DNA from: Deltaproteobacteria bacterium | Lineage (GTDB): Bacteria > Desulfobacterota > GWC2-55-46 | Assembly (NCBI GenBank): GCA_016182655.1 | Contig: JACPGB010000031.1 | Span: 1-64,000, forward strand | Reading direction: 5' to 3' | Length of the DNA: 64,000 nucleotides | In this document: positions 3,362 to 53,814 of the stretch, one piece after another | Layout of the letters: each line of letters begins with the position of its first letter | Numbering within the stretch: position 1 is the stretch's first letter | Notes under the pieces: generated by a model | Seen by the model: only the letters and a program-made list of their open reading frames with translations | The model's database searches: none | Told to the model about the DNA's origin: nothing | Made by a program: the position numbers and the translations under genes

Positions 3362-4363
3362 ATGTACGCGATAGAGACCGAAAACCTTGTAAAAAAATAC
3401 GGCGGCCTCACCGCCCTCGACGGGGTCTCGCTCAAGGTCCCTGAAGGCGAATGCTTCGGGCTTTTGGGCCCGAACGGCGCCGGTAAGACGACGCTCATAA
3501 GGATACTCACGACCCTTATAAGGCCGACGAGCGGGAGGGCTTTGGTCGCCGGGTTCGATGTCGCGAAGGAGAAGGCGAGCGTCAGAGGCGCGATAGGTGT
3601 TGTCCCGCAGGCCATGACGAGCGACCTCGATCTTACCGGCCTCGAGCTGATGGATATCTACGCCCGCTTCTACGACATGGGTAAAAAGGAACGGAGGGAC
3701 CGGATAGACGAGCTCCTTACGATGGTGGGCCTTCGCGAGAGGGCAGGGGACCTGGTCGCCACATACTCGGGCGGCATGAGGAGGAGGCTCGAGATAGCGC
3801 GCGGCCTTGTCCACAGGCCGTCCATTCTCATACTCGACGAGCCTACCATAGGCCTCGACCCGCAGTCGAGGCACGTCGTATGGGAGCTCCTCGAGAAGTT
3901 CCGAAAGGCCGACAAGCTCACCATACTCCTTACGACCCATTACATGGAAGAGGCCGAGTCTCTCTCCGACCATGTGGCCATCATCGACTACGGTAGGATA
4001 GTCGCGCTCGACACGGTCGAAGGGCTCAAAAAGCAGATACCGCAGAAGGATACCATAGAGCTTACGGTCTCCAATATAGACATGGGAAAGGCGAAGGAGG
4101 AGGTCTCGGCGCACTCCTCCGTCAGCTCCGTTGCCGTGAACGAGGCAACGCTCATCATATCCGTCGACAACGGCGCTAACGCCATACCCGAGCTCGTAGA
4201 CAGGCTTAAAAGCCTCGGCGCGAAGGTCACGAGGGTGACGCTCAAGGAACAGACGCTTGAGGATGTCTTCATACACTTTACGGGCCGCCCCATAAGGGAG
4301 GAGGAGGCGCGGAAGGTGAGCTTTCTTTTGGGCGCGGGAGTGCCGAGGCAGTGGGGTAAATAA
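3362..4363 (+). CDS. ABC transporter ATP-binding protein (DrrA/YbhF type)
   Basis: ATPase subunit of an ABC-2 exporter for a drug, lipid or polysaccharide; the substrate cannot be told from sequence. Walker A GPNGAGKTT is near residue 40, the signature YSGGMRRRLEIA near 138, Walker B ILILDEPTIGLD near 158, and the H-loop TTHYMEEAE near 190. The last 110 residues are the regulatory extension typical of the DrrA/CcmA branch, ending in an EDVFIHFTGR motif. At 333 residues it is of normal length. It follows the frameshifted adaptor by 4 nt; the partner permease lies 250 bp downstream beyond an inserted repeat, which is an unusual gap for such an operon. Confidence 0.92.
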   Translation: MYAIETENLVKKYGGLTALDGVSLKVPEGECFGLLGPNGAGKTTLIRILTTLIRPTSGRALVAGFDVAKEKASVRGAIGVVPQAMTSDLDLTGLELMDIYARFYDMGKKERRDRIDELLTMVGLRERAGDLVATYSGGMRRRLEIARGLVHRPSILILDEPTIGLDPQSRHVVWELLEKFRKADKLTILLTTHYMEEAESLSDHVAIIDYGRIVALDTVEGLKKQIPQKDTIELTVSNIDMGKAKEEVSAHSSVSSVAVNEATLIISVDNGANAIPELVDRLKSLGAKVTRVTLKEQTLEDVFIHFTGRPIREEEARKVSFLLGAGVPRQWGK

Positions 4364-4372
4364 TTTGATGCG

Positions 4373-4591
4373 CCTCTAAAAATCGTTATTTTTCCTGACT
4401 GCTCGGCGCAGGGCCAAAGCTTGTACGGAGTCTCGGGGCCAAACAATTCTCAAGCCGTTTGATACGGATTTGCCCGTCCGGCCAGGACTGCGTCAGGGCG
4501 GAAATAAAAATGCTCACATATTACTTATATATGCCGCGCTTTTTATTTCCGCCCTTCCTTGACCTCAGAAAAAATTCCTAATTTTTAGAGG
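4373..4591. repeat. Structured intergenic element, copy 1, with terminal inverted repeats
   Basis: This 219-bp block fills the gap between the ATPase and permease genes. Its ends are an exact 11-bp inverted repeat (cctctaaaaat at 4373-4383, complement at 4581-4591), extended imperfectly to about 26 bp. Inside is a core (4400-4495) that aligns without gaps over at least 75 positions to 52488-52562 upstream of flgI, followed by a perfect 16-bp stem (4495-4510 with 4540-4555). No clear target duplication is visible. It resembles a non-autonomous mobile element or a conserved RNA structure. The permease downstream has only a weak ribosome-binding site, so the element may have separated it from its original leader. 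Confidence 0.7.
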
Positions 4592-4613
4592 TAGCCACAA
4601 CCGGTAAGAATAA

Positions 4614-5735
4614 ATGAACCGTTTCAAAGCCATACTTGAGAGGGACCTCCGCAAATTCATAAGGAACCCGCTCGTCGTTGCGATGAGCGTCCTTATGCCG
4701 GTCATCTACCTCGTCATACTGGGGAACTCCTTCCAGGGCGAATTGAAGCGCCTGCCTGTGGCTGTGGTCGACCAGGACAACGGCCCGGGCGCTGAAAAGG
4801 TCATGGAGCGCCTGAACGCGCTGGAGGCCGGCCCCCGGACGATAGAAACAAGAAAAGTCTCGTCCCAGGGCTTCGCGATGGAGGGGCTCAAGGAGGGCGT
4901 CTTCAAGGGGGTAATAGTCATCCCGCCTGGCTTTAGCCGCGACCTTGCGCGGGGGTCCGTAGCCGAGGTCGGTCTTTTCCTCGATAACGCCGAAACGATA
5001 GCCGCCGTAGCCGTGCAGTCGTCCGTCACGAGGGCCGTATCGGACCTCGGCAGGGAGTTCGTGAGCGTAAGGGAGGAAAGGACCGCGCCGCATCTCCGCC
5101 CGATAGAGCTCTACAGGAAGATAGACTACGACCAGACGCTCATCCCAGGCGTCGTCATCATGGCTATATTCCTGGGCGCCATGACGACCGGAGCGTTCAA
5201 TATCGTAATGGACCGCTTTTTAGGGGTCGAGGAGAGCTACTTCCTGACCCCGTTGACCAAGAAGGACATCGTCATGGGGCTTGTCGGCAGCGGCCTCCTC
5301 ATAACGACGATCATAGCCGTCGTCGTCCTCTTTTTGGGCTCTCTCATCTCCGGCATATACCTCTGGAGTTTCATAGGCATCGATACGCTCCTTCTTATAC
5401 TCGCGGTCATCGTCCTCTCGACACTCGGGCTCCAGGGGCTCATGTTCGTCGTAATGGGAAGACTGAACCACCCGAGGATAGTCGGAGTCCTCGGGGGTTT
5501 TCTGAACGTCATATTCTTTTTCCCGAGCGGGGCGATATATCCGGTCGAGTCCTTCCCCGCATGGCTCAAGGCCTTTGCAGTCGTGAACCCCGAGACATAT
5601 TCGGTCCATGCGCTCCGCGCCCTCATGTTCAAGGGGGCGTCGCTCGGGGCGGTCAAGGGGGATATCGTCTTCCTCGCCGTATTCGCGGCAGTATCCGTTG
5701 CCGCAGGCACGGCGGCCTTCAAAAGGGAGCTTTGA
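4614..5735 (+). CDS. ABC-2 type transporter permease
   Basis: Membrane subunit of the exporter whose ATPase is encoded upstream. One N-terminal membrane helix (about residues 22-38) is followed by a large extracytoplasmic region of about 130 residues (LKRLPVAVVDQDNGPG), then five closely spaced helices from about 178 to the C-terminus, including the conserved NPETYSVHALR segment before the last helix. This is the standard ABC-2/YhgE-like layout at 373 residues. The start at 4614 has only a poor Shine-Dalgarno (gaggtag lies 20 nt upstream), probably because of the repeat element just before it. Confidence 0.9.
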   Translation: MNRFKAILERDLRKFIRNPLVVAMSVLMPVIYLVILGNSFQGELKRLPVAVVDQDNGPGAEKVMERLNALEAGPRTIETRKVSSQGFAMEGLKEGVFKGVIVIPPGFSRDLARGSVAEVGLFLDNAETIAAVAVQSSVTRAVSDLGREFVSVREERTAPHLRPIELYRKIDYDQTLIPGVVIMAIFLGAMTTGAFNIVMDRFLGVEESYFLTPLTKKDIVMGLVGSGLLITTIIAVVVLFLGSLISGIYLWSFIGIDTLLLILAVIVLSTLGLQGLMFVVMGRLNHPRIVGVLGGFLNVIFFFPSGAIYPVESFPAWLKAFAVVNPETYSVHALRALMFKGASLGAVKGDIVFLAVFAAVSVAAGTAAFKREL

Positions 5736-52442: not shown

Positions 52443-52487
52443 AAAGACCTTGAAAAAGTTCCTGAGAGAACCTTTTTATAAAAAGTG

Positions 52488-52653
52488 TGCTGGGCGCACC
52501 GCCAGATTTCAGTCGGAGCACTCTGAGCAATTTAAAGCACGGTCGATTGAAATGGGTTTGCCAGTCCGGCGAGGACTCTCAGACTCTCTCCAAAAATTTT
52601 CAGTTCTTCCAGAAGTTCTCCCCCAAAAAGACAACGGGGGAGAACTTCTGGAA
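52488..52653. repeat. Structured intergenic element, copy 2, in the flgI leader
   Basis: Core 52488-52582 aligns without gaps to 4400-4474 and on to tcag (ttgcc motif exactly 70 nt after tgct in both). It is followed by a perfect 18-bp stem (52607-52624 with 52636-52653) and an 11-nt loop. The stem sequence is unrelated to that of copy 1, but it is equally long and perfect. The flgI ribosome-binding site lies 23 nt further on. Confidence 0.72.
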
Positions 52654-52689
52654 CTAAAACTCTTCGGAGTGGGTGTGGGAGATACTTCT

Positions 52690-53814
52690 TTGTACAAAAG
52701 GGTTTTCATAGATACTTTTTTCCAATGGCCTGTGGCTGCATTCGTTATCGCTTTAATGTTCCTGCTCTTAAGCGGTACCTCTGAAGCCGCGCGCATCAAG
52801 GACATCGCCTTTGTCGAAGGGGTGAGGTCCAACCAGCTCGTCGGCTACGGCCTCGTCGTCGGCCTGAACGGCACCGGGGACAAGTCCAGCAGTGCGACCA
52901 ACCAGTCGATATCGAATATGCTGAACAGGATGGGGATGAAGATAGACCCCAAGAACATAAAGGTCAAGAACACGGCCTCGGTCCTCGTCACCGCCGAGAT
53001 ACCGCCCTTCGTCAAGCCCGGAGCCAGGATAGACATTCTGGTCTCGTCCATAGGCGACGCCTCGAGCCTCCAGGGCGGCACTCTGATATCAACGCCGCTC
53101 CGCGCGCCTGACGGCGCGGTCTACGCCATGGCGCAAGGGGCGATTGCGCTCGCCGGGTTCACCGCAGGCAAGGCGTCGTCGAGCGTCACAAAGAACCACC
53201 AGACAGCGGGAAAGATACCCGGGGGCGCGATACTCGAACGCGAGGTCCCCTTTGCCCTGAACGCCCAGAACGGGCTCGTATTTTCCTTAAGGAACCCTGA
53301 TTTCACGACTGCCGCGCGCATGGTCGACGCGATAAACAAGGGGCTCGGGTATGACGCGGCAACGGCTCTCGACGCGGGCAAGATCAAAGTGGCCGAGCCT
53401 CAGGGGTCCAAAGGCCTCATAGAGCTCATATCCGCGATAGAGCTCCTTGAGATAAAGGCCGACGCGGTCACTAAGGTCGTCGTGAACGAGAGGACCGGGA
53501 CCGTCGTCATGGGCGAGAACGTAAGCATATCGAGTGTCGCCATCTCTCACGGCGACATAAGCATAGAGGTCAAGACCCAGTACCATATTTCCCAGCCCGC
53601 CCCGTTCTCGAAGGGAGAGACGGTCGTCCAGCCGGTCGAGGAGACTACCGTACAGGAGGAGAGGTCGAGGCTTATCGTGCTCCCGGAGAGCGTAACTCTC
53701 GGGGAGGTAGTAAGGGCCCTTAACCTCGTGGGGGTGACCCCGCGGGACCTCGTAGCGATACTCCAGGCCATAAAGGCCGCGGGCGCGTTGCAGGCGGAGC
53801 TCGAGATCATCTAA
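52690..53814 (+). CDS. flgI: Flagellar P-ring protein FlgI
   Basis: Periplasmic ring subunit. The frame is open back into flgH, but the extra upstream residues would be translated from the structured repeat and look non-coding. A TTG at 52690 with GGGAG eight bases upstream gives a proper signal peptide (YKRVFIDTFFQWPVAAF..., cleaved near SEA-A) and 374 residues, the usual size. The mature start ARIKDIAFVEGVRSNQLVG and the VVGLNGTGDKS block are characteristic. The TTG call is inference. Confidence 0.9.
   Translation: MYKRVFIDTFFQWPVAAFVIALMFLLLSGTSEAARIKDIAFVEGVRSNQLVGYGLVVGLNGTGDKSSSATNQSISNMLNRMGMKIDPKNIKVKNTASVLVTAEIPPFVKPGARIDILVSSIGDASSLQGGTLISTPLRAPDGAVYAMAQGAIALAGFTAGKASSSVTKNHQTAGKIPGGAILEREVPFALNAQNGLVFSLRNPDFTTAARMVDAINKGLGYDAATALDAGKIKVAEPQGSKGLIELISAIELLEIKADAVTKVVVNERTGTVVMGENVSISSVAISHGDISIEVKTQYHISQPAPFSKGETVVQPVEETTVQEERSRLIVLPESVTLGEVVRALNLVGVTPRDLVAILQAIKAAGALQAELEII

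Follow-up and report, generated by a model that had tools for sequence, protein, structure and literature searches.

A REPIN-like dimer with TTTGSCC-type tails inside a MITE from an ABC exporter operon of a Deltaproteobacteria bacterium

In enterobacteria, REPs occur in alternating arrays that are known as BIMEs. BIMEs are mentioned in two papers (PMC3116915, PMC8266576), the first of which describes REPINs, i.e. doublets of REPs with a spacer that form hairpins, and mentions tandem arrays and a clover fold. REPs have been divided into super-families with GTAG and CGTC tails, which form tail-to-tail and head-to-head dimers as well as heterodimers and show complementary changes in their stems (PMC3733652). 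REP dimers are also found inside longer palindromes, and REPs are thought to depend on RAYTs, with the CGTC class, of which repeats occur without a transposase, as an unexplained exception (PMC3733652). TnpA-REP proteins read the tail and the loop of these repeats (PMC8266576), and REPs can serve as targets of insertion sequences (PMC1525189). The block described in this work, located between two genes of an ABC exporter operon, is best explained overall as a MITE (family A) that probably took up a REPIN-like dimer.

The window, i.e. the whole stretch of 64,000 nucleotides that was analysed, belongs to a draft genome of 2.91 Mb in 60 contigs (G000). In this window the genes for an ABC ATPase (3362-4363) and an ABC-2 permease (4614-5735) enclose a block for which an earlier note had described terminal inverted repeats, an internal perfect 16-bp hairpin and a second, homologous copy upstream of flgI. 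The gene positions agree with that description, copy 2 being located in the flgH-flgI gap in the 52.5-kb block of the window. The terminal inverted repeat CCTCTAAAAAT/ATTTTTAGAGG is present at 4373-4383/4581-4591, and the perfect hairpin, with arms at 4495-4510 and 4540-4555, is located in the right part of the MITE (4495-4555, no strand assigned). Because the inverted repeat continues outwards as GGCTA..TAGCC, with a decayed left copy, the full element is not 219 bp but extends from 4368 to 4596 on the forward strand, which makes it a long-form family A MITE of 229 bp. Its left terminal repeat (4368-4384, forward strand) is a decayed GGCTACCTCTAAAAATT, and the right one (4580-4596) is an exact GGCTACCTCTAAAAATT on the reverse strand.

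An nhmmer comparison within the window supported the homology of the two copies (E=3e-5), but their ungapped identity is 43 of 75 positions (57%) or 54 of 90 (60%) and not the two thirds claimed before; for comparison, the second-best ungapped 75-mer of the window reaches 35 on the forward and 37 on the reverse strand. Covariance model R1, which was built from 42 core copies including copy 2 itself, places this copy at E=4.5e-13. Common to the two copies is a 90-bp core alone (4399-4488 and 52487-52576, both on the forward strand), and the surroundings of the core are two different repeat families. What the two operons share is not one element, but a REP-like dimer nested in two unrelated hosts, and the block consists of two nested things, a MITE outside and a separate repeat module inside. 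The window copy is oriented along the coding strand of the ABC operon and lies within it; most likely it has no role there and would be a neutral passenger just behind the ATPase gene.

With the block as query, 41 family A blocks were found in the draft genome at E-values from 4e-111 to 6e-29 (two of these blocks are one element), a similarity far beyond chance which bears out the family that the earlier note had predicted. Family A elements occur as forms of about 140 bp without core, about 226 bp with core and, in two cases, about 317 bp; the element of the last size at C40 carries two cores in tandem. The inverted end common to the 48 elements of which both ends were located, in this genome and in related loci, is GGCTACCTCTAAAAATT. 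Twelve of these 48 elements are flanked by an identical 4-bp repeat, the target-site duplication (TSD), against a mean of 1.57 and a maximum of 6 in 300 shuffled pairings, and no other TSD length stands out. Sister genomes provided empty sites: one was read directly by comparing the orthologous loci L005 (G000) and L107, and at another position L264 (G000) is empty and the MITE of L148, flanked by TTTA at either end, lies within a coding stretch. With terminal inverted repeats (TIRs) at both ends of many copies, a target-site duplication and empty sites in relatives, the outer part qualifies as a non-autonomous DNA transposon of the TIR type that duplicates 4 bp of its target. The description as a non-autonomous mobile element, one of two options in the earlier note, is therefore supported for the outer MITE and likely for the inner repeat.

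Family A resembles bacterial MITEs with TIRs and short TSDs in its size, its 4-bp TSD, its intergenic location and its polymorphism between congeners, and differs from them by the REP-like dimer in one arm. In the stretches examined, 10 of 11 family A cores are 25-53 bp away from a gene boundary, and since a MITE arm measures about 31 bp, the MITEs are located at gene edges, as in the window. The window copy has a decayed left end and no visible TSD. Inspection by eye of 71 end matches in the one draft genome revealed no transposase or partner transposon with family A ends and no pair of ends at transposase distance. Plasmid and phage collections contained no sequence related to family A, which leaves a phage or plasmid vector unsupported. 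MITE A may be moved in trans by a DDE-type transposase that is not visible in the assembly. The whole MITE folds better than shuffled sequences (z -5.4), as expected for any long palindrome. Two pairs of elements at the same site (L027/L161 and L021/L212) differ by the presence of the core, i.e. by an exchange at the core position, which gene conversion between MITE copies could explain as well as insertion. Facing family A ends only 36 bp apart at C51:50616-50651 and C54:46477-46512 of the source genome look like minimal palindromic derivatives.

The inner 90 bp are an inverted heterodimer of two REP-like units of about 20 nt that exists independently of MITE A, both in other hosts and as naked tandem arrays. 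Searches with R1, a step that the earlier note had proposed for finding further copies, located the core at no fewer than 150 places in the source genome and at 72 or more in each of the congeners G001, G003 and G004, whereas the fourth congener, G002, has 2-3 cores and 25 genomes of other genera of the same family have none. The difference between G002 and the other congeners implies that the core expanded or was lost within one genus. Among the matches listed, named records with the motif are mostly Deltaproteobacteria bins GWB2_55_19 and NC_groundwater_1707/1708. An analysis of 836 kb of the source genome covered 90 sites, which contain 149 units, and assigned them to classes according to the flanking motif; 65 of the 90 are in five recurring host repeats and 25 are naked, although this assignment by short motifs is crude and at least the sites L247:7516 and L233:15987 are arguably misfiled. 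The hosts are the MITE of the window block (A), the family around copy 2 (B), a CCTCCC-type palindrome (C), a GTCATTGCGAGG-type palindrome (D) and a longer composite (E). Tandem arrays of 2-5 units make up 20 of the 25 naked sites. A search for autonomous long copies, with core halves 0.1-4 kb apart, gave nothing convincing in the source genome and the relatives' loci. The host B repeat around copy 2 has approximate limits of 52461-52720 (forward strand) and a hairpin of its own with arms at 52609-52624 and 52636-52651; in this family (window 52609-52651; L044-L062) the central hairpin is near-perfect with a different stem sequence in every copy read, a C-run/G-run always stands beside the loop, and the surroundings are conserved.

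Read from the tail, a unit consists of TTTG(G/C)CC, a 4-bp stem, the loop G(G/C)CGA and the complementary stem, and in the core two such units are arranged tail to tail around a variable spacer of about 50 nt. In the window, unit a (4399-4418, reverse strand) has the tail TTTGGCC, the stem CTGC/GCAG and the loop GCCGA, and unit b (4469-4488, forward strand) has the tail TTTGCCC, the stem GTCC/GGAC and the loop GGCCA; the 50-nt spacer occupies 4419-4468 (forward strand). In copy 2 the units are located at 52487-52506 (a) and 52557-52576 (b). A search by unit design over the 836 kb gave 260 units against 49 in the reversed sequence, a count in which most odd stems are due to chance and host C contributes about 14 false units. 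The same 836 kb hold 75 tail-to-tail pairs with a spacing of 42-58 and 24 pairs arranged head to head, which overlap by a median of one base. Arrays frequently open with a single right-hand unit, which would fit the 20-nt unit, rather than the 90-bp dimer, being the elementary one. Among 17 long MITE A copies the identity is 93-99% in the dimer hairpins, 88-91% in the MITE arms and 57% in the spacer; the high value for the hairpins as compared to the spacer indicates that the former are constrained and the latter is free.

Inverted palindromic units with a spacer, present as 75 pairs and at least 150 dimers, constitute a REPIN/BIME architecture, and the core is REPIN-like in its working. It shares with REPINs the two inverted short palindromic units, the spacer, the high copy number, the extragenic location, the tandem clusters and the hairpin or clover fold; unlike REPINs it has a TTTGSCC tail (or a near variant) instead of a GTAG-type one, 4-bp stems of free sequence, and no RAYT flanked by its units (PMC3116915). 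The similarity to the GTAG and CGTC REPs extends to a conserved unpaired tail, complementary stem changes, tail-to-tail and head-to-head heterodimers and dimers inside longer palindromes, and the CGTC class likewise occurs without a transposase (PMC3733652). The core differs from these super-families in its tail, in its 4-bp stem, which is shorter than the 8-9 bp that go with the CGTC tail, in the tail-to-tail pair as the main dimer, and in the rarity of G:T pairs, which are often seen in GTAG families (PMC3733652). As in BIMEs, the arrays alternate the orientation of two unit types, but the units are different and the arrays are located between promoters. Because neither a GTAG tail nor an association with a RAYT was found, we do not file the core as a RAYT-associated REP. 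Searches of an open-access library for the motif strings, for REPs in Deltaproteobacteria and Elusimicrobia and for REPIN/RAYT systems gave no report of a TTTGSCC family, which seemingly has not been described previously.

The earlier note had offered a conserved RNA as the other explanation of the block and had named compensatory changes in the hairpin as a check. Such changes are present. In alignment A1, a hand-picked set of 42 of the 56 non-redundant units of the source genome, 58 cells changed on both sides as compared to 27.7 in shuffles (0 of 500 as high), and in A2, also hand-picked (25 of the 56 plus 7 units of the distant family in G037), there were 45 against 15.1 (0 of 500) and slid structures gave 1-6; the structures tested were derived from these same sequences. 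Less striking were the A1 pairs with a double change (12 vs 10.0 in shuffles, 59 of 500 as high) and the further pair types (28 vs 26.1, 111 of 500 as high). In a set of up to 255 distinct units, 220 left stems were readable, of which 201 were perfect and belonged to seven types; of 206 right stems, 197 were perfect, with three types. The left-stem pairs comprise 854 Watson-Crick, 4 G:T, 8 A:C and 14 other combinations, the right-stem pairs 815, 5, 2 and 2, respectively. If selection acted at the RNA level, G:U pairs on the transcribed strand should be favoured. The covariation found here is not of this wobble-tolerant kind: over both stems there are 9 G:T and 10 A:C pairs, and this equal rarity favours DNA, as a folded single strand or a cruciform, over RNA.

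A conserved structured RNA, either a small RNA or a cis-regulatory leader with three hairpins kept at the RNA level, would account for the compensatory changes and for the window copy lying inside an operon on the coding strand, and some units indeed fold better than shuffled sequences (z -5.1 for a G037 unit, -2.5 for L054 and -2.6 for L206, within a range of -1.0 to -5.1 for six units). The window unit, however, folds no better than its shuffles (z +0.94), and Rfam returned no match above threshold; the sole match with E<1 was to a miRNA model and scored 21.5 bits, with a cut-off of 57. Together with the missing wobble excess, these computations led us to reject the RNA reading, against which there is also the position of the naked sites: they have no orientation preference, and many arrays immediately precede -35 boxes, in divergent promoter regions on either side. 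We regard an RNA as very improbable.

The location of the naked arrays was examined further. Eight of the 25 lie between divergent genes, as compared to 1 of 63 hosted sites, and outward -35/-10 pairs often start no more than about 12 bp from one or both ends of the array, with promoter scores above those of upstream controls (p 0.0007 on the right, 0.005 on the left). Insertions may survive only where promoters stay intact. The tandem arrays L229, L236, L237, L239, L245, L254 and L267 of the source genome abut -35 boxes, in divergent regions on both sides. No regulon became apparent behind the arrays: the first residues of 28 flanking gene products, read by eye, point to unrelated housekeeping-like genes.

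In hosts A and C the units occupy a different kind of place, inside small hairpins. A flanking stem of at least 5 bp is present at 8 of 11 host A sites and 13 of 31 host C sites, as compared to 3.2% of intergenic controls, and by inspection the unit replaces the apical loop in host D. Elsewhere the same measure gave 0 of 25 naked sites, 0 of 13 for host E, 0 of 5 for D and 1 of 5 for B. A first test of flank complementarity on 103 sites was weak (score of at least 20 in 13 of 103, vs 3.6% for mispaired flanks and 4 of 103 for reversed ones), and flank complementarity was discarded as general evidence for insertion at hairpin tips, being confined to hosts A and C. Copies in the same host, A or C, are not independent of each other, so that tip insertion is represented by a handful of events.

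Comparison of orthologous sites bears on whether the core moves at all. Naked arrays were present at 8 of 8 testable sites, with changed unit numbers, and hosted cores at 2 of 8 (Fisher 0.007; 0.035 if one doubtful site is reassigned); presence is over-counted in both groups because the relatives' loci were fetched for holding a core. No clean empty site of a naked core was found in the relatives' loci that were compared. These figures would suit a core that never moved by itself, was captured a few times by hosts and then travelled as their passenger, changing otherwise by recombination or slippage between copies. The 65 of 90 sites in recurring hosts fit this as well, and by eye the spacer type appears to follow the host subfamily in the 17 long MITE copies. 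Apart from the sampling bias towards presence, such a history does not explain the entry of a single dimer into five or more unrelated hosts, nor why single units sit at hairpin tips in Elusimicrobia (see below), and we consider it possible but doubtful.

As regards the enzyme, the matching RAYT gene that the earlier note had envisaged was searched for and not found. Y1_Tnp matches number three in G000, three in G004, one in G003 (below cut-off) and none in G001 and G002; genomes without cores have 0-8 Y1 genes. Among the seven Y1 loci of the genus, one has a core within 300 bp (about 230 bp from the Y1 gene and in a different palindrome), and the flanks of the Y1/RAYT-like genes (L321-L324, L328-L330) carry GTAG-type palindromes of their own, GTAGGTTGGGTTAGCGGAGCGTAACCCAAC and GTAGGGTGCGCCGTGCGCACC; no RAYT flanked by the same REP was seen at these seven loci. 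One HUH-like ORF was detected by a motif scan of the 836 kb of the source genome; the same scan gave no such ORF in the loci of relatives with cores (470 kb) or in those of Elusimicrobia (126 kb). The core could not be linked to any enzyme: the distribution of the Y1 genes does not match that of the core well, and the palindromes next to these genes are different ones. The core might still be an ordinary REPIN with a merely altered tail that is moved by the RAYTs (Y1 transposases) of the genus, in line with its REPIN architecture, the one core close to a Y1 gene, the absence of Y1 matches from G002, which is almost devoid of cores, and the counts in the other congeners if it is considered that the G001 genome is 85% complete. 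We consider this unlikely in view of the six of seven Y1 loci without a nearby core, the GTAG-type flanks, the results of the HUH scan and the Y1 genes of core-free genomes. No clear strand bias of the kind expected of lagging-strand insertion emerged: 34 of 80 sites are on the G-rich strand, which is not significant overall; host C alone has 6 of 27 (p 0.006, uncorrected for six host classes).

Returning to the proposal of a MITE that took up a REPIN-like dimer, the REP-like units may be, or may have been, the substrates of a protein with specificity for single-stranded DNA in folded form. This protein would recognise the tail and the loop and leave the stem free to vary, comparable to the HUH/Y1 proteins that act with REPs. 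The stem types CTGC, CCGC, GTAC, GTGC, GCGC, ACGC, GTCC and GCCC occur on a constant tail and loop and thereby indicate which bases a mobiliser should read. Units would enter the hairpin tips of other palindromes, could then spread further as passengers of these host repeats, and might expand into arrays by recombination or slippage between units. A reading of the left hairpin arm as an IS200-type target/guide pair was abandoned because the empty form of host B lacks this arm.

Units of the same design occur outside the genus. G037, from another family of the same order, has tandem units with other sequences, and one of these units yields precisely the three hairpins on folding (z -5.1). Model R2, which was partly built from G037 units, finds 42 copies in G037 at E-values up to 1e-4 and none in 42 of the 48 genomes of the order, i.e. 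those outside G037 and the genus; under strict filters (E up to 1e-5), matches among 395 genomes of the phylum are limited to G000, G003 and G037. Some G037 units (L200, L226) end in CCACGCATGTGG-like palindromes, which may resemble type I-E CRISPR repeats. Four genomes of Elusimicrobia contain 23, 14, 10 and 17 single units, as compared to 1, 0, 1 and 2 with the reversed pattern. Among these units are stem variants (GTAC and GTGC) with an unchanged loop and, in most, the same tail. A perfect flanking stem of at least 5 bp surrounds 16 of 31 Elusimicrobia units, as compared to 3.1% of random windows from the same loci; these 16 cases are not independent events, because many units are near copies of one another. 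The unit design shared by the two phyla, Desulfobacterota and Elusimicrobia, may reflect transfer or convergence.

A more far-reaching suggestion, which we put forward tentatively, is that these units form a third REP super-family, defined by the tail TTTGSCC, the loop GSCGA and a freely covarying 4-bp stem and present in at least two phyla. Such units would be mobilised without a RAYT, by an enzyme acting on single-stranded DNA with a preference for hairpin tips, including those of MITEs that then carry them. With its high copy number, different tail, lack of an adjoining RAYT, strict Watson-Crick covariation and location at the tips of unrelated palindromes, the family is a clean system in which to study the agents that move REPs and the reasons for their accumulation in hairpins. 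In the Elusimicrobia loci (L333-L362), single TTTGCCC-type units stand at the apex of hairpins, for example between GTCATCCCCGAG and CTCGGGGAT, and one unit is located in the loop of a terminator-like hairpin.
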